A stretch of DNA of 62,446 nucleotides from an alpha proteobacterium AAP81b (lineage in GTDB: Bacteria; Pseudomonadota; Alphaproteobacteria; Sphingomonadales; Sphingomonadaceae). Positions 2,458 through 9,995 of the stretch are shown piece after piece. Location: positions 1 through 62,446 of the forward strand of contig LJHX01000038.1 in the NCBI GenBank assembly GCA_001295935.1, in the 5' to 3' direction. Numbering within the stretch: the stretch's first letter is position 1; every line of letters begins with the position of its first letter. The notes below the pieces were generated by a model. It saw nothing but the letters and a program-made list of their open reading frames with translations. It had not been told where the DNA came from and searched no databases. The translations under genes were made by a program, and so were the position numbers.

Positions 2458-4599
2458 TCAGCTGCCCCGCACGCGATCGACCGAGACGACCGCTTTCACC
2501 GCGCGCAGCCCGGTCAGAATGCGGCTGAGATGTTTCACATCCTCGACCTCGATGTCGAGAAGGTCGGTATGAAACTCACGGTCGCGGTGCTGCAGCGCCA
2601 GCCCGACGATGTTGGCACCTTGCGCCGCGATGCTCGCCGTCAGGCTGGCGAGCGCGCCGGGCTGGTTGTGGACGACGACGGCGATGCGCGCCACGGCGCC
2701 GTCGCTTTCCGGCCCCCAGGAGACTTCCAGCCATTCGCCATCCTCCTCGGCGAGGCTGGCGCAATCGATGGTGTGGACAACAATGGGGCCATCGGGGTGG
2801 CGGATGCCGACGATGCGATCGCCCGGGATGGGGTGACAGGCGCCGAGCTCGAAGCCGACGCCGGGGGTCAGGCCTTCGATGGTCAGCGCCGCGGGGCCGG
2901 GCTTGCCGCGGCTGCGACGCGGCTTCTTGCCGGCGGTCGACCCCGGCACCAGCGCTTCCGACACCTCGGCATCGGTCAGGCGGTTCTTCGCCATGGCAAC
3001 TTCGAGCGCCAGGCGATCGGGGAGTTGCAGCCGCGCCAGCGCCGGCGCCAGCACCTCGTCATCAAGCTGCACCGCCAGCCGCAACGCCAGCGATTCGAGC
3101 AGCTTGTGCCCCATGGCGCGGTTCTCGGCCTCGGCTTTCTGGCGGACGTGGCGGCGCACCGCGGCGCGCGCCTTGGCGCTGGCGACAAAGCCGCCCCAGG
3201 CCGGATCGGGCGCCTTGACCTTGCTGCGGATGATCTCGACCTGGTCGCCATTGGCCAGCCGCGTCCTGAGCGGCACGACGCGCGAATTGACCTTGGCGCC
3301 GATGCAGGTGTCGCCCAGATCGCTATGCACGGCATAGGCGAAATCGACCGGCGTCGAGCCCTTCGGCAGCTGATACAGGTCGCCCTTGGGGGTGAAGGCG
3401 AAGACCTGGTCCTGGAACATCGCCAGCCGGGCGTTTTCGAGCAGTTCCTCGGGGCTCGCCGCCGAATGCAGGACTTCGAGCAGATCCTCGAGCCAGGGAT
3501 AGGCCTCGCGCGCCGCCGGGCTGCCCTGCTTGTAGGCCCAATGCGCGGCGAGGCCGAATTCGGCTTCCTCATGCATGCGGCGGGTGCGGATCTGGACTTC
3601 GATGCGGGCATTTTCGCGCGCCCCGTCGCGTCCGCCGGCGTCACGGCCGCCGCCGCTGTTGTGCATCACCGTCGTGTGGATTGACTTGTAGCCGTTGCGC
3701 TTCGGCGTCGAGACGAAATCCTTGAAGCGCCCGATGACCATCGGCCAGCGGCGGTGCACCACGCCGAGCGCGCGATAACAAAGGTCGTCGTCGGGCACGA
3801 GGATGCGGAAGGCCATGACGTCGGACAGCGCCTCGAAGCCCATGGCGCGCGCCTGCATCTTGCGCCAGATGCTGTAGGGGCGTTTTTCGCGCCCCGTCAC
3901 CTCGGCGTCGATGCCGTTCTGGGCGAGCACAAGCTTGATGCCCGAGGCGATGCGCGCGACGGTATCGCCGCCCGTGCTGCGCAGCTTGTCGAGGCGCTGG
4001 ACGATGGTGTCATGCGCTTCGGGTTCGAGATGGCGGAAAGCCAGCTCCTGCATCTCCTCCATGAAGCCATACATGCCGATGCGCTCGGCGAGCGGCGCAT
4101 AGATGTCCATCGTCTCGCGGGCGATGCGGCGGCGCTTTTCCTCGGACTTGATGAAGTGCAGCGTCCGCATGTTGTGCAGCCGGTCGGCGAGCTTGACGAG
4201 CAGCACGCGGATGTCGTTCGACATGGCGAGGATGAACTTGCGCAAATTCTCGGCCTGGCGCTCGGTGTCGGTCTGCACCTCGATGCGGCTGAGCTTGGTG
4301 ACGCCGTCGACCAGCCGGCCGACGCTGGCGCCGAACAGCCGGTCGATCTGTTCCTGGGTGGCGACGGTATCCTCGATGGTGTCGTGGAGGATGCCGGTGG
4401 CGATCGTCTCGTCGTCGAGTTTCAAGTCGGTCAGGATGCCGGCGACTTCGATCGGATGGCTGAAATAGGGGTCGCCCGAGGCGCGCAGTTGCGACCCGTG
4501 CGCCTTCATCGAGAAGACATAGGCGCGGTTGAGCAGGTCCTCGTCGGCCTCGGGGTCGTACGACTTGACGCGTTCAACGAGTTCATACTGGCGGAGCAT
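2458..4599 (-). CDS. rsh: Bifunctional (p)ppGpp synthetase/hydrolase (RelA/SpoT homologue)
   Basis: A 713-residue Rsh protein that both makes and degrades the alarmone (p)ppGpp. The HD hydrolase domain occupies roughly residues 25-180, with FSHP and the metal-binding HDTIEDT (H72-D73). The synthetase domain follows with RFKDFVSTPKRNGYKSIHT. A TGS domain (VFAFTPKGDLYQLPKG) and a C-terminal ACT domain (VHNQPGALASLTASIA) complete the order. Retention of both catalytic motifs argues for a bifunctional enzyme, as in most alphaproteobacteria with a single long Rsh. It lies in the conserved neighbourhood of rpoZ and pyrE. The start is the ATG at 4599. Confidence 0.96.
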   Translation of the reverse strand: MLRQYELVERVKSYDPEADEDLLNRAYVFSMKAHGSQLRASGDPYFSHPIEVAGILTDLKLDDETIATGILHDTIEDTVATQEQIDRLFGASVGRLVDGVTKLSRIEVQTDTERQAENLRKFILAMSNDIRVLLVKLADRLHNMRTLHFIKSEEKRRRIARETMDIYAPLAERIGMYGFMEEMQELAFRHLEPEAHDTIVQRLDKLRSTGGDTVARIASGIKLVLAQNGIDAEVTGREKRPYSIWRKMQARAMGFEALSDVMAFRILVPDDDLCYRALGVVHRRWPMVIGRFKDFVSTPKRNGYKSIHTTVMHNSGGGRDAGGRDGARENARIEVQIRTRRMHEEAEFGLAAHWAYKQGSPAAREAYPWLEDLLEVLHSAASPEELLENARLAMFQDQVFAFTPKGDLYQLPKGSTPVDFAYAVHSDLGDTCIGAKVNSRVVPLRTRLANGDQVEIIRSKVKAPDPAWGGFVASAKARAAVRRHVRQKAEAENRAMGHKLLESLALRLAVQLDDEVLAPALARLQLPDRLALEVAMAKNRLTDAEVSEALVPGSTAGKKPRRSRGKPGPAALTIEGLTPGVGFELGACHPIPGDRIVGIRHPDGPIVVHTIDCASLAEEDGEWLEVSWGPESDGAVARIAVVVHNQPGALASLTASIAAQGANIVGLALQHRDREFHTDLLDIEVEDVKHLSRILTGLRAVKAVVSVDRVRGS

Positions 4600-4643
4600 C
4601 GGGCGATGATGGGGCGCGCTGGCGACGCGCGCAACCGCAACTG

Positions 4644-5327
4644 TCAGGCGAGGCTGAGGCCGTGGTCGGCGGCCTTGGCCAGCACCAGGCCGGCACGGGC
4701 GCGCATCGGCGCGATATGTTCACGCAGATTGGGCAGGTTGATGTCGTTCCAGACCTGCGTCGCCACCGCCGCGACGCCGGCCTCGTCGAGCCCCAGAAAG
4801 CGCGTGTAGAAGGACGCCGGATCGTCATGCGCCGCGCGCCAGAAGCCCAGGAAGCGCGCGATGTACCAGGCAAGCAGATCGGCCTCGGCGGCGTCGAGAT
4901 AGACCAGCACGTCAAGCGCGCCCGTCGGCAGCGCATTGAAGCCAAGGCCTTCGACGATCACCACGTCGGCGCTGACGTCCCTTGCAAGCTCGGGGTCGAT
5001 GTCGAAATGCTGGTGCGAATAGCCGGGCACCCGCGCGCCGCCGCGGCGCAGGTCGGCGAGCGTCGCGGCGAACAGGTGGTGGTCGTAGCTTTCCGGGAAG
5101 CCCTTGCGGAGGAGCAGGCCACGGCTTTCCAGGACGGCATTGGGCAGCAGGAAGCCGTCGGTGGCGACGACCGCGGCGCCGGGGATGGCGTCGGCGAGCG
5201 CTGACGCCAGAGTCGATTTGCCGGCGGCGACCGAACCGGTCAGGCCGATGAGACACGGTGTATCGGGAGTGCGCCCGGCGATGAGGCGGGTGGCGAGGTC
5301 GGGGATGGTGAGCGGGCCGCCGGACAT
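4644..5327 (-). CDS. Short CoaA-like (type I pantothenate kinase family) P-loop kinase
   Basis: A 227-residue P-loop kinase that reads like type I pantothenate kinase (CoaA): Walker A GSVAAGKST (about residues 31-39), the CoaA hallmark ATDGFLLPN followed by RKGFPESYD, then YSHQHFDI, WYIARFLGF and NDINLPNLREHI. CoaA proteins are about 310-320 residues; this one lacks roughly 75 residues at the N-terminus before the P-loop. It could still phosphorylate pantothenate, the first committed step of CoA synthesis, or act on a related substrate. It sits between the rpoZ 3' repeat and rsh, apparently in the same transcription direction. Confidence 0.75.
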   Translation of the reverse strand: MSGGPLTIPDLATRLIAGRTPDTPCLIGLTGSVAAGKSTLASALADAIPGAAVVATDGFLLPNAVLESRGLLLRKGFPESYDHHLFAATLADLRRGGARVPGYSHQHFDIDPELARDVSADVVIVEGLGFNALPTGALDVLVYLDAAEADLLAWYIARFLGFWRAAHDDPASFYTRFLGLDEAGVAAVATQVWNDINLPNLREHIAPMRARAGLVLAKAADHGLSLA

Positions 5328-5394
5328 GGCGTCATGGTGACGCGGGGGCCGCGCGTTGGGAAGGGGAGAGGTAGGGGAGGGAAAGTAGGAAGAG

Positions 5395-5531
5395 CGCCGC
5401 GGCGAAGCCGCGTCGGACGTCAGACCGGTTCGCCGGACTTGATGTCCGGCGCCCGGCTGGCCGACCGTTCGCGCGAGTCCGCGCGCTTCAGAAATTCGCT
5501 GCGCGAATTTCTTCCAGCGCGCTGGCCGCGC
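5395..5531 (-). repeat. Three-hairpin 3' element, copy 1 (after rpoZ)
   Basis: A roughly 137-bp element that begins directly after the rpoZ stop codon. It is nearly the reverse complement of 6725-6864, which follows rpsD; relative to its gene each copy has the same orientation. Three inverted repeats can be seen: GAAATTCGC/GCGAATTTC (5491-5511, 3-nt loop), GCCGGAC/GTCCGGC (5432-5450, 5-nt loop) and CGCGGC/GCCGCG (5398-5412, 3-nt loop). There is no T-tract, so it is not a classical intrinsic terminator. Possible roles are a 3' UTR stability element, a processing site or a mobile palindromic repeat. Confidence 0.85.
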
Positions 5532-5873
5532 TCATTCGTAATCCGGCCCCAGATTCTGATTCCGCGGCGGCTGCGCCGCCGTAACCCGCAAAGCCTCGGC
5601 CGAAGCCGCCAACGAACCGATCGCATCGGGCGTATCGTCCTCGTCAGGAACGACACGCTGCATCGACGACACCACCGCCTCCTTGAGATCGGCGGGGCGG
5701 ACGGTCTGTTCGGCGATCTCGCGCAGCGCGACGACGGGGTTCTTGTCGCGGTCGCGGTCGATGGTCAGCTCGGCGCCGGCCGAAATGGCGCGGGCGCGGT
5801 TGGCGGCGAGCAGCACCAGGTCGAAGCGATTGGGGATCTTGTCGACGCAATCCTCGACGGTGACGCGCGCCAT
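5532..5873 (-). CDS. rpoZ: RNA polymerase omega subunit
   Basis: The 113-residue protein starts [16 protein letters not shown] and contains the omega core segment [17 protein letters not shown]. Omega promotes folding and assembly of the beta' subunit and, in many proteobacteria, forms part of a ppGpp site, which suits its position upstream of rsh. I chose the ATG at 5873 because the conserved sequence begins there; an in-frame extension to 5930 has no conservation. After the omega core the tail is acidic and Ala/Pro-rich. The three-hairpin 3' element follows immediately. Confidence 0.95.
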
Positions 5874-5944
5874 GGGGCAAACTCCGGGGGAATTAGGAAA
5901 GAGCGGCGCGAGTGACGACAAAGCCGCCAAAAGTCAAGTCCGGC

Positions 5945-5973
5945 TTGACGGCGTGGCCCCTTGCGGCTAACGC
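5945..5973 (+). promoter_or_regulatory. Candidate sigma-70-type promoter of rpsD
   Basis: TTGACG (5945-5950), a 17-nt spacer, then TAACGC (5968-5973). The layout and downstream bases (GGCTAAC followed by a GCCCGCGCTT-like run) are shared with the rpmB promoter near 39.6 kb, which supports it. It would give an rpsD leader of about 130 nt. It lies in the 238-bp divergent rpoZ-rpsD spacer; a minus-strand TTGACT at about 5938-5933 may belong to rpoZ, but I see no clear matching -10 for it. Confidence 0.55.
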
Positions 5974-6111
5974 CCCGCGCTTCGCGACTTGGCCCTGCAC
6001 CCCCGGTGAAGCAGGCGCCGCGCTCGGTGGCCCTACAAGGGGGTCGGCCGGGCGGTGCGAGGCCGGGGACCGGCGCTCGATGACGGGCGCCGCGCCAGCA
6101 AAGGAACATCG

Positions 6112-6723
6112 ATGTCGAAGCGTCACGCCGCCAAATACAAGCTCGATCGCCGCATGGGCGAGAATATCTGGGGCCGGCCGAAGAGCCCGGTCAACAAGCG
6201 CGAATATGGCCCCGGCCAGCATGGCCAGCGCCGCAAGGGCAAGACCTCGGACTTCGGCCTGCAGCTCAAGGCCAAGCAGAAGCTCAAGGGCTATTACGGC
6301 GACGTCACCGAAAAGCAGTTCCGCAAGGTCTATGAAGAGGCCGTCCGCATGAAGGGCGACACCTCGCAGAACCTCATCGGCCTGCTCGAACAGCGCCTCG
6401 ACATGGTCGTCTATCGCGCCAAGTTCGCCCCGACGATCTTCGCCGCGCGCCAGATCGTCAACCACGGCCATATCCTGGTCAACGGCCGCCGCTGCAACAT
6501 CGGCTCGGCCAAGGTCTACCCCGGCGACATCGTCGAGCTCGGCCCCAAGGCCAGGGAAATGGCGTTGGTCATGGAAGCCCAGACCTTGAGCGAGCGCGAC
6601 GTTCCCGAATATGTCGCGACCGAAGGCCCCAAGGCGACCTATGTCCGCGTGCCGACGCTCGATGAAGTGCCGTATGCGGTGAAGATGGAGCCGAATTTGG
6701 TCGTGGAATTTTATAGCCGGTGA
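6112..6723 (+). CDS. rpsD: 30S ribosomal protein S4
   Basis: A 203-residue S4 protein beginning [20 protein letters not shown] and containing the S4 RNA-binding segment [20 protein letters not shown]. It is a primary 16S rRNA binder and an early assembly protein of the small subunit. The ATG at 6112 is preceded by AAAGGAA at 6100-6106. It is a single-gene unit here, as in other alphaproteobacteria, divergent from rpoZ and followed at once by copy 2 of the three-hairpin repeat. Confidence 0.98.
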
Positions 6724-6724
6724 T

Positions 6725-6864
6725 CCGCAGCGCGGCCGCGCGCTGGAAGAAATTTGCGCAGCGAATTTCTGAAGCGCGCGGACTCGCGCAAGGTCGGCTG
6801 GCGGGGCGCCGGACATCAAGTCCGGCGAACCCGTCCAACGTCACGCCGCGGCTTTGCCGCGGCG
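6725..6864 (+). repeat. Three-hairpin 3' element, copy 2 (after rpsD)
   Basis: Partner of 5395-5531, in inverted orientation but identical placement: it starts one base after the rpsD stop. Hairpins are GAAATTTGC/GCGAATTTC (6749-6769, 3-nt loop), GCCGGAC/GTCCGGC (within about 6808-6827) and CGCCGCGGC/GCCGCGGCG (6844-6864, 3-nt loop). The one change in the first stem relative to copy 1 turns a C-G pair into a U-G wobble and so keeps the RNA stem. The third stem is longer (9 bp) than in copy 1. Confidence 0.85.
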
Positions 6865-7292
6865 TTTCGCGTTCCGGGCTATTGCAACACCCCCTCGCCG
6901 CGCCCCGCCCTTGCGGCGCCGACAACCCCCTGCTACCAAAGGCGCGCCGCAGCTTCGCGCCGTGGCGCTTTCCCGGACCGATGCGTCCTGTCGCCCTGTG
7001 CCCGCGCCCCGCGCGCCGGCGGGGGGCGACGTTCGACGCCCAGGTTCGGGCCGAAAATGTCCGGCCGGGGTCAGGCCGGCAAGGCAAGGGAGCCGGATGA
7101 GCCGAGTGTCATGGAGAAATGTCGAGGGCGCCCGCGAGGTCGCATCGGCATGGATGACACCGCTTCCCGGCGCCATTTATTCCCGATTGAACCAATCCCG
7201 GGCCGAACGCCGCTGGCGTTCCGGCCCTTCGCTTGTCCGCCGCCACGGCAGTTCGCCCGTCGAACGCCATCGCCGCGCCATGGAGTTATCCG
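6865..7292 (+). promoter_or_regulatory. Long leader region of rne
   Basis: About 430 nt without a convincing gene precede rne; the open frames here are continuations of the repeat or lack codon bias. The clearest structure is a GC hairpin with one bulge, GGGCCGAACGCC (7200-7211) pairing with 7215-7227. A second GC-rich inverted repeat lies around 7060-7095. The rne ribosome-binding site GGAGTT is at 7282-7287. RNase E leaders are autoregulatory in other bacteria; a similar role here is inference only. Confidence 0.4.
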
Positions 7293-9995
7293 ATGTCATT
7301 ACGCATGCTGATCGACGCCCGCCACCCGGAGGAGACCCGGGTTGCCGTCGTCAATGGCCAGAGAATTGAAGAATTCGATTTCGAGGCGGCCGATCGCCGC
7401 CAGCTGAAGGGCAATATCTACCTCGCCAAGGTAACGCGCGTCGAACCCTCGCTGCAGGCGGCGTTCGTCGAATATGGCGGCAACCGCCACGGCTTCCTCG
7501 CCTTCAGCGAAATCCATCCCGATTACTACCAGATCCCGCGCGAGGATCGCGAGGCGCTGCTGCGCGAGGAAGCCGAGTACGCCGCGCAGGAAGCCCATGA
7601 CGACGAGCATGGCGTCGTCCGCGACCATGGCGACGACGACGACGCCGATGGCGAGCCGCATGACGAAGGCGCCGAAGTCGCCGAAACCGGCGGCGCCCAG
7701 GACGAGCCGACCGACGCGCTGCGCCGCAAGCGCCAGGCGCTGCGTCGCCGCTACAAGATCCAGGAGGTCATCCGCCGCCGCCAGGTGCTGCTGATCCAGG
7801 TCGTCAAGGAAGAGCGCGGCAGCAAGGGCGCGGCGCTGACCACTTACCTCAGCCTCGCCGGCCGCTATTGCGTGCTGATGCCCAACACCGCGCATGGCGG
7901 TGGCATCAGCCGCAAGATCTCGAACCCCGCCGATCGCAAGCGGCTGAAAACCATCATGGCGGAGCTCAAGCTGCCCGCCGGCATGGGCGCCATTGTCCGC
8001 ACCGCCGGCCTCAAGCGCTCGCCCGCCGACATCCGCCGCGACTTCGATTATCTCACCCGGCTGTGGGACGAAATCCGCGAGCGCACCCTGTCGTCCTCGG
8101 CGCCGGCGCTGATCCATGAGGATTCGAACCTCGTCAAGCGCGCCATCCGCGACATCTATCACCGCGATATCGAGCAGGTCATCGTCGAGGGCGCCGAGGG
8201 CTTTGCCGCGGCGCACCGCTTCATGTCGATGCTGATGCCGACGCATGCGCCGAAGGTCGTCGAATATCAGGACAATGTGCCGCTGTTCCAGCGCTTCGGC
8301 GTCGAACAGCAATTGGAGGCGATGTACCAGCCGGTCGTCCAGCTGAAATCGGGGGGCTATCTCGTCATCAACCCGACGGAAGCGCTGGTGTCGATCGACA
8401 TCAACTCGGGGCGCTCGACGCGCGAGTACGGCATCGAGGAAACCGCCACCAAGACCAACCTCGAAGCCGCCGAGGAAATCGGCCGCCAGCTGCGGCTGCG
8501 CGACATGGCCGGGCTGGTGGTGATCGATTTCATCGACATGGAACATGGCAACAACGTCCGCAAGGTCGAGAAGGCGATGAAGGACGCGCTGCGGAATGAC
8601 CGCGCTCGCGTCCAGATCGGCCGGATCAGCGCCTTCGGCCTGATGGAAATGAGCCGCCAGCGCCTGCGCACCGGCGTGCTCGAAGCGTCGACCCACAGCT
8701 GCCCGATGTGCGAGGGCACCGGCATGGTGCGCTCGGTGTCGTCGGCGGCGCTGGCCGCCTTGCGCGCGCTCGAAGCCGAGGCGCTGCGTGGCCGCGCGTC
8801 GGACCTGACCCTGCGCGCCAGCGAGGAAGTCGCGGTCTATCTGCTCAACCGCAAGCGCATCGAGCTCGCCGAATTGGAGGAGCTTTATGGCGTCACCATC
8901 GTCACCGTTCCCGACGAGGCGCTGATCGGCCCCAATTTCGTCATCGACGCCAGCGGCCCGGCACCGTCGAAGCGCATCGAGATGCGGCCGCTGCCGGCGC
9001 CGGTGCGGATCGAGGATGACGAGGACGGCAACGCCGCCGATGATGATGGCGATGACGAGGCCGGCGACGAGCGCGCCGAGCGTGGCGGCGACCGCGGCGG
9101 CGCCGGTCGCGGCAAGCGCCGGCGGCGCCGGCGTGGCGGGCGCGATGACGCCGAGGGCGCCGAAGCGACCCAGGAAAGTGCCGGCGACGCAGAGGAAGAC
9201 GCCGACGCAGCCGACTTCGTGCCGGCGGCGAGCGTCGCCACGGTGGACGCCATCGATCACGATGACGCCGCCGACGACGAGGCCGACGCCGCGAGCGACG
9301 CCGAGGCGAATTCCGGCGCCGAGCCGCGCGAGAAGCGCAAGCGCCGGCGTCGCGGCCGCCGCGGCAAGCGCGATCGCGACGGCGTGACGCCGGGCGGCGG
9401 CGAGACGGCACCGGCTGCCGACGCCAGCGACACCGCCGCCAGCGACACCGCGGACATGGCACCGGCCGATATCGCCGTAACCGCCAGCGCGGCAGCCGTA
9501 ATCGCCAGCGACGCCCGCCCCGCGACCGACGACGCCGCGCCCAAGGCGCGCCGCCCGCGCCGGCGCAAGGCCGATCCGGCCGATGCCGAGCCCGCGGCCA
9601 GCGTTGCCGAAGTGGCGCCCGCCGCGCCGGTCGTCGCCGAGGTACCGGCTGTCGAGGACGCACCGAAGCCGAAGCGCCGGCGCAAGGCCGCTGCCGAGGC
9701 CGAAGCCGCACCGGCGCCGGAGGCGGTGGCGGTCGAAGCCGCGCCCGAAGCAGCCGCCAAGCCGAAGCGGCCGCGGCGCGCCAAGGCGACGAGCGCCGAC
9801 AGCGAGGTGGCGGCTGCTGCCGCACCCGAGGCCGTCGCCGCAGCCGTCGCGCCGGCAGCGGCAGCCGAGACCGGTGCCGGCGAGGCAACGTCCGGCGACG
9901 CAACGTCCGACGACGCAGGCGCGCCCGCCGCCAACGATCCCGCCGAGCCCGCGGCGCCGCCGCGCAAGGGCTGGTGGCAGCGCACCTTCGGCTGA
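7293..9995 (+). CDS. rne: Ribonuclease E
   Basis: A 900-residue RNase E, the endonuclease that starts most mRNA decay and processes rRNA and tRNA. The N-terminal S1 domain carries an acidic insertion (about residues 95-140, rich in D/E/H). The DNase I-like active-site Asp residues are D369 (SIDINSG) and D412 (VVIDFIDM). The zinc-link CPMCEGTG is at 470-477. From about residue 565 the protein is a low-complexity scaffold of Arg-rich blocks and Ala/Glu/Pro runs, ending GWWQRTFG, which resembles the GWW peptide that recruits PNPase in Caulobacter. The start at 7293 (MSLRMLIDARHPEE) has GGAGTT upstream; the frame extends 60 nt further without conservation. Confidence 0.97.
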   Translation: MSLRMLIDARHPEETRVAVVNGQRIEEFDFEAADRRQLKGNIYLAKVTRVEPSLQAAFVEYGGNRHGFLAFSEIHPDYYQIPREDREALLREEAEYAAQEAHDDEHGVVRDHGDDDDADGEPHDEGAEVAETGGAQDEPTDALRRKRQALRRRYKIQEVIRRRQVLLIQVVKEERGSKGAALTTYLSLAGRYCVLMPNTAHGGGISRKISNPADRKRLKTIMAELKLPAGMGAIVRTAGLKRSPADIRRDFDYLTRLWDEIRERTLSSSAPALIHEDSNLVKRAIRDIYHRDIEQVIVEGAEGFAAAHRFMSMLMPTHAPKVVEYQDNVPLFQRFGVEQQLEAMYQPVVQLKSGGYLVINPTEALVSIDINSGRSTREYGIEETATKTNLEAAEEIGRQLRLRDMAGLVVIDFIDMEHGNNVRKVEKAMKDALRNDRARVQIGRISAFGLMEMSRQRLRTGVLEASTHSCPMCEGTGMVRSVSSAALAALRALEAEALRGRASDLTLRASEEVAVYLLNRKRIELAELEELYGVTIVTVPDEALIGPNFVIDASGPAPSKRIEMRPLPAPVRIEDDEDGNAADDDGDDEAGDERAERGGDRGGAGRGKRRRRRRGGRDDAEGAEATQESAGDAEEDADAADFVPAASVATVDAIDHDDAADDEADAASDAEANSGAEPREKRKRRRRGRRGKRDRDGVTPGGGETAPAADASDTAASDTADMAPADIAVTASAAAVIASDARPATDDAAPKARRPRRRKADPADAEPAASVAEVAPAAPVVAEVPAVEDAPKPKRRRKAAAEAEAAPAPEAVAVEAAPEAAAKPKRPRRAKATSADSEVAAAAAPEAVAAAVAPAAAAETGAGEATSGDATSDDAGAPAANDPAEPAAPPRKGWWQRTFG

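Follow-up and report, generated by a model that had tools for sequence, protein, structure and literature searches.

The rpoZ and rpsD genes in the window, the whole 62,446-nt stretch of DNA analysed here, are each followed by a copy of a structured RNA module that recurs behind unrelated genes and stable RNAs of the same genome. The module itself is well supported, and we observe covarying structure, a position at gene ends, a linker fitted to the host gene, loci shared between genera and homogenisation within genomes. The sequence-only reading had proposed a conserved RNA element at gene ends beyond ordinary termination, a proposal upheld by the covariation and the gene-end position. As to mechanism, we give an even chance to a 3´-end module that is carried mainly by usually highly expressed genes and protects the transcript, terminates it, or both. 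The architecture supported by modelling comprises a basal helix P0, predicted to form between a linker and the last codons and stop codon of the gene, then hairpins H1, H2 and H3 and a pyrimidine-rich tail.

The two window copies are inverted to each other, at 5395–5531 on the minus strand behind rpoZ and at 6725–6868 on the plus strand behind rpsD. As had been read from the sequence, each is flush with the stop codon of its host (rpoZ, 5532–5534, minus; rpsD, 6721–6723, plus), lies in the orientation of that gene, and is predicted to fold into three stems in identical order. The hosts are RNA polymerase omega (open frame 5532–5930, minus; TIGR00690 above cut-off) and 30S ribosomal protein S4 (6112–6723, plus; NCBIfam NF003717/TIGR01017 above cut-off). 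In the predicted fold of the rpoZ copy, on the minus strand, H1 (5471–5531) abuts the rpoZ stop codon and H3 (5395–5415) precedes a pyrimidine-rich stretch without a long T-run; model R2 matches the 3´ base of H1, the linker and the H2 core at 5418–5482 with 77.8 bits. The rpsD copy, on the plus strand, is predicted to form H1 at 6730–6789, which carries the conserved GAC bulge close to its 3´ base, and H3 at 6843–6865, a GC-rich stem with a UUU loop; the 3´ base of H1, the linker and the H2 core (6778–6840) are matched by R2 with 84.6 bits and backed by covariation. A weak P0 enclosing H1 (6722–6795) appears in both the minimum free energy (MFE) and centroid folds of the rpsD copy, in which stop-codon bases and CC (6722–6726) would pair with linker bases 6792–6795. 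The MFE fold of the rpoZ copy lacks P0. R2 finds both copies (E 1.3e-17 and 4.5e-16), and its next match in the window has an E of 0.34.

The earlier description of the copies as near-identical fits their 90% identity over the matched stretch but is somewhat too strong for the middle domain: identity is 98% in the 52-base H1 arm and 81% in the 69-base middle. The middle differences are partly compensatory (CAG..CUG and CCGG..CCGG in the rpoZ copy versus UGG..CCA and CGGG..CCCG in the rpsD copy), and the reported change of a C–G to a U–G pair in H1 is genuine. Both folds are stable, with an MFE of -96 and -87.1 kcal/mol (z -6.7 and -5.4), and neither stability was reached by any of 200 shuffles. 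A scan of 4600–7700 found no terminator-like site, and a stricter script found no terminator within 300 nt of the copies; nor does a T-run follow either of them, as noted previously. Among the neighbouring genes, a Rne/Rng-family ribonuclease (TIGR00757; 7293–9992, plus), an enzyme class fit for testing against the module, lies about 430 nt downstream of the rpsD element. A pantothenate-kinase-like gene (below family cut-off; 4647–5327, minus) and a RelA/SpoT gene (2461–4599, minus) follow the rpoZ element co-directionally. The former starts about 70 nt past the element, so that full termination by the rpoZ module would cut this gene off.

In the source genome (G000; other G numbers denote compared genomes and L numbers individual loci), BLAST gave at least 20 matches at E <= 0.01 among the best 40 of 107 candidates scored, some of them short and one antisense to another. 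The covariance model gave at least 28 matches at E <= 1 and at least 21 at E <= 4.5e-7; these source-genome counts are lower bounds because 150 of 7351 candidates were scored. We examined 22 copies, adding to those 21 a degenerate one behind nrdA (E 0.21). Of these, seventeen lie behind protein genes with an NCBIfam family (some below cut-off): rpsD, rpoZ, rho, infA, rpmE, rplL, rpoA, secB, glnA, nrdA, nrdB and genes for a thiolase, an SDR, an AhpC-like peroxiredoxin, two TonB receptors and a TamB-like protein. Many of these host genes are usually highly expressed. Two copies stand behind open frames without a family match and three directly behind RNase P RNA, SRP RNA and a tRNA. What the mRNA and stable-RNA hosts have in common is the transcript end. 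Unit length is mostly 139–153 nt, with three hairpins.

Compensatory changes are seen in H1 and in H2, and those in H2 greatly exceed what shuffling gives in two sets of aligned copies. In set A5 (49 copies), 98.1% of H2 cells are paired versus 77.3% in shuffles and 149 double changes are seen versus 40 (0/500 each), with a less extreme count of pair types (15/500). The corresponding values in set A6 (89 distinct rows) are 95.7% versus 80.8% and 187 versus 44 (0/500), with the proviso that A6 leans towards R2 because it was aligned to it. Its rows come mostly from G110, G171 and G076, genera outside model building, and otherwise from G021, two of whose rows had been in the training set. Slid controls left 20–41% paired and at most 23 (A5) and 41 (A6) double changes. 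Covarying stems, which the sequence-only reading would have taken as favouring a regulatory RNA if restricted to 3´ UTRs, are present beyond both kinds of control, which supports a new structured RNA family. Counted along the entire unit, and without a shuffle control, 29 of the 46 predicted pairs carry a double change among 17 source-genome copies. R2 was built on a hand-drawn structure because RNAalifold gave R1 a spurious short helix; L013, L019 and L020 were left out of set A2, and ten long-tip, antisense or degenerate rows, plus the last two of 51, out of A5. The GAC bulge is nearly invariant (G in 89, A in 86 and C in 85 of 89 rows), as are other unpaired positions of the conserved core, a U bulge (80/89) and an A before the closing CG (88/89), while H1 differs in length among species. 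By their conservation, such unpaired bases suggest a candidate binding partner.

A known Rfam family was rejected: Rfam 15 gave no match at the gathering score in window positions 5000–7200 or in sets of 10 and 17 loci. The two matches in the former lay far below it (E 0.54 and 0.85), and the loci returned solely neighbouring tRNA, RNase P and SRP genes. Our literature search, which covered open-access papers, found no description of the three-hairpin unit. Some copies carry additional elements. After 7 of 111 scanned elements (L028, L037, L038, L039, L041, L183 and L250), 40–51 nt downstream of the core, lies a second small hairpin of the form GCGGACTCGGCGGC-loop-GCCGCC (or near), which again has the GACTC motif in an internal loop. 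A REP-like palindrome of the CCCCGGATCAGGTCCGGGG type, which we take to be a CGTC-REP, is inserted between H2 and H3 in L029 (the copy behind a TonB receptor), in L069 and at the rpsD ends of G009, G016 and G021.

Position was scored over 138 copies, comprising 22, 19, 16, 27 and 27 from five genomes (for G110 and G076, 27 of 31 and 27 of 41 matches were sampled) and 27 from other congeners. A same-strand open frame of at least 80 codons ends between -6 and +15 nt of the H1 base in 88 of them, a figure lowered by the automatic H1-base rule, which misplaces some copies; the rule also lets through at least one spurious frame, which lies over RNase P RNA in G000. Such a frame ends within 75 nt in 121 copies; among 20,000 random positions, 6.9% had one ending in the 22-nt interval. 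Several of the remaining copies follow RNA genes, and copies stand directly behind RNase P RNA in five genomes, SRP RNA in two, and tRNAs.

The linker is fitted to the gene that it follows. Each gene end was folded with its H1 and either its own linker or that of another copy, counting pairs into the last 15 sense nucleotides and the stop codon. Swapping the linker only, among copies of one genome that have the same constant part (55 copies), lowered the pairs from 4.02 to about 3.23–3.24 (4/3000 and 3/5000) and the stability by 1.6 kcal/mol (0/3000 and 0/5000). Displacing the gene end by 30 or 60 nt upstream abolished the pairing signal (2381/3000 and 802/3000), left a smaller energy difference (25/3000 and 77/3000) and, at a shift of 30, raised pairing into post-stop bases (4/3000). 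An earlier full-fold swap of 111 copies gave 0/5000 in energy, with part of the H1 base included in the swap. On the same number of copies a simple duplex test between gene end and linker gave a weak result, 48/2000 by run score and 280/2000 by duplex energy, and G021, G171 and G076 were each not significant alone in this test. The linker pairs at least two stop-codon bases in the MFE fold of 19 of 111 copies, and 18 of 87 copies carry the linker that fits best among those of their own genome. Among rpoZ orthologues, a TAA stop goes with linker TTA in G006, G021 and G110, and TAG with CTA in G004, an exact stop-codon match in four of nine copies; G000, G019, G042 and G139 show no such match. 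At the rpoZ end of G023 (L283), by eye, H1 is apparently lost and the linker can still pair the stop-codon region, as a minimal clasp around a short loop. The fit is a statistical property of the family as a whole, weak in the two copies of the window, and P0 is a helix supported by family-wide statistics, for which the rpsD copy alone is insufficient.

The third hairpin was found in 132 of the 138 copies, and the 15 nt after it are 76% pyrimidine versus a background of 52%. In copies with this hairpin the T fraction of the tail is 0.39 versus 0.17, and a T-run of at least four occurs in 34 of the 132; none is present in 20 of the 22 source-genome copies. The tails of G076 are T-rich (T 0.68 in 25 copies; 0.27–0.38 in the other four genomes). 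A canonical terminator can stand in place of the unit, after it or inside it. It was found at 41 of 67 related rpsD genes by a strict rule that missed obvious T4 terminators, and G013, with an RpsD 96% identical, has one and no module, so the module is dispensable at that locus. At rplL in G018 and G014 it is visible after the module, and termination is therefore not always the module's job. In three loci the tip of H2 is swapped for a canonical A-tract/T-tract terminator hairpin, an arrangement also seen at rpsD (G009, G011, G015, G016 and G022) and rplL (G007, G019 and G042).

Model R1 found the module in all 24 genomes of the genus that were searched and in none of 17 others. With R2, in wide searches that score few candidates per genome, it was found in at least 43 of 298 genomes of the family (at least 16 of 96 sampled genera), at least 37 of 246 of the order and at least 2 of 289 of the class, the latter two groups lying entirely in the same family. 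In these searches the module was found only in one family of Sphingomonadales, taken on the strength of the named relatives as Sphingomonadaceae. G021, G171, G110 and G076 have 16–41 matches each, lower bounds with 150 candidates scored. Of twenty weaker matches sampled in further genera, one per genome, 14 lie, as judged by eye rather than by family search, behind recognisable C-termini (six phaB-like, two groEL, two fusA, one nusG, one lepA, and another conserved protein in two genomes). No match better than E 0.91 was obtained at 80 named rpsD loci. The rpsD 3´ flank of G018 equals that of Alphaproteobacteria bacterium PA4 over the stretch compared.

G000 and G110, of different genera, carry the unit at seven common loci (rho, rpsD, rpoZ, thiolase, glnA, secB and rnpB) versus about 0.2 expected by chance, assuming some 3,300 genes and no bias to expressed genes. 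Similarity between orthologous copies hardly exceeds that of random copies from different genomes, standing at a mean percentile of 0.58 of cross-genome similarity (32 pairs). On the whole similarity is higher within genomes (means of 73–77%) than across them (67–76%), with the exception of G110 versus G171, which at 75.5% is close to within-genome values. Among 26 genomes read, the unit is present at rpsD in nine and at rplL in 15, one other rplL end falling at a contig end; genomes without it mostly show a canonical terminator there (by eye). The rplL copy of G000 resembles its genome-mates, and G013, G008, G007 and G042, the last of another genus, keep a common rplL type (by eye). At rplL the location may thus be old and the homogenisation recent.

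These data bear on several other explanations. The special rpoZ–rpsD link of the sequence-only reading falls away: the genome has at least 21 copies, and their hosts include unrelated genes as well as RNase P RNA, SRP RNA and a tRNA. A regulator common specifically to these two genes would suit the copies that both carry in G000 (the window), G110 and G021, but at least 19 further copies stand behind other genes of the same genome; private regulation was therefore rejected, and such a regulator is highly improbable. The suggestion of a palindromic mobile repeat fares better in part: copies are dispersed, present or absent between congeners at rpsD and rplL, and homogenised within genomes. Such a selfish or once-mobile repeat, REP- or MITE-like, would survive just behind genes and be evened out by gene conversion, its RNA fold reflecting DNA hairpins; the weak likeness of orthologous copies agrees with this, and known REPs, in the available account, favour the downstream side of genes (PMC3733652). 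Its sites are not random, however: by script, 88 of 138 copies lie right at a gene end and on the strand of that gene, loci are shared with another genus far beyond chance, and linkers are fitted to their hosts. At rplL, filled versus empty sites show by eye no target duplication, and the unit replaces a segment. PF01797 (Y1/RAYT, the REP-type transposase) was found in none of eight genomes at E <= 0.001, with 5 of 14 control genomes positive, which rejects RAYT mobility; carriage by phage or plasmid was likewise rejected, the rpsD copy having no match in either collection (blastn only). Mobility alone is insufficient because it leaves the gene-fitted linker and the shared loci unexplained, and a mobile repeat as the whole account seems rather unlikely. 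Mobility may, alongside termination, have contributed to the unit's spread.

An elaborate intrinsic terminator of GC-rich genomes, in which H3 and the pyrimidine-rich tail terminate and H1 and H2 add folding alone, would explain why the unit stands where relatives have canonical rpsD terminators and also follows RNase P RNA, SRP RNA and tRNAs; the T-rich tails of G076 and the canonical terminators at the H2 tip of several loci point the same way. Termination does not, however, require the GAC bulge, the nearly invariant unpaired bases of H2 or a gene-fitted P0. Further points against it are the true terminators that follow the module at rplL in G018 and G014 and the rarity of T-runs in the source-genome tails. 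Since H1, H2 and P0 are left unexplained, termination alone is insufficient, and we consider this account quite unlikely. A translation-coupled device, in which a stop codon at the base of a strong hairpin stalls terminating ribosomes or senses their passage, accords with the flush position, with the stop-codon bases taken into P0 in some copies and with an E. coli REP precedent (PMC12306157, as far as the available text goes). The module also follows untranslated RNAs, however, and stalling would presumably be costly at usually highly expressed hosts; the RNase P, SRP and tRNA hosts weaken a purely translational role, and a device of this kind appears improbable.

For the 3´-end module that we prefer, the mechanism may be pictured as follows. 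Between the last codons and the terminal hairpin, the module would keep the transcript folded with few interruptions. RNase E, 3´ exonucleases and Rho would then find little room to land once the last ribosome has passed, and the module would in this way define and protect the 3´ end; where a canonical terminator is absent, it may itself act as terminator. A more specific version is that of a new RNA device: a standard 3´-end module on dozens of unrelated transcription units, kept uniform by concerted evolution, with a gene-specific clasp by which copies pair to the end of their own host gene, last codons and stop codon included, and an H2 motif read by a dedicated, putative partner. We offer this version tentatively, as a possibility that falls short of an even chance. 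If true, it would mean that one RNA part has been copied genome-wide and kept uniform, yet fitted to its sites. Transcript ends have been mapped less thoroughly in GC-rich bacteria than in the usual model organisms, and the module would offer a direct means of studying how these bacteria finish and protect their abundant transcripts.

Among described repeats, CGTC-type REPs come nearest. S. chlorophenolicum, S. wittichii and N. aromaticivorans are sphingomonads. The available account names CGTC-tagged REPs of alphaproteobacteria from these species and describes them as palindromic, dispersed, mostly downstream of coding regions, partly RNA-acting by proposal and with no dedicated transposase known; they are 20–40 bp single hairpins with 8–9 bp stems, predominantly in head-to-head dimers (PMC3733652). 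The module, too, is palindromic and dispersed, lies downstream of genes and has no known transposase, and the other strand of H2 begins with CGTC. Unlike what is described of these REPs, it is an ordered three-hairpin unit of about 150 nt here with gene-fitted pairing; in a test for REP tags it was not a 20–40 bp GTAG/CGTC hairpin, the other-strand CGTC lying within the larger covarying unit. REP copy number, in the part of the literature at hand, is usually over 100 (PMC2817692). REPs also form pairs in alternating orientation; face-to-face pairs of the module occur, but behind convergent genes. E. coli REPs that lie no more than 15 nt from a stop codon are reported, in the accessible text, to stall ribosomes (PMC12306157). 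The module resembles E. coli REP/BIME in placing a hairpin within 15 nt of the stop codon, and roles in stability and translation have been proposed for those elements; as far as they are described to us, they are short, whereas the module is also found behind stable RNAs. We know of no gene-fitted linker for E. coli REP/BIME. With intrinsic (Rho-independent) terminators the module shares a last hairpin and a pyrimidine-rich tail at transcript ends; it differs in having two extra conserved domains, usually no T-run, and sometimes a true terminator besides. The HRC-28-1 motif of Polynucleobacter is also a structured motif at a putative 3´ UTR site ending in a terminator stem. It differs in having six stems and 33 examples, most of them from a single genus, and in that the available part of its description does not present it as dispersed over many genes (PMC8632094). 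Set against these systems, the module is a new variant of the kinds of 3´-end repeat and terminator already described, and possibly a new kind.
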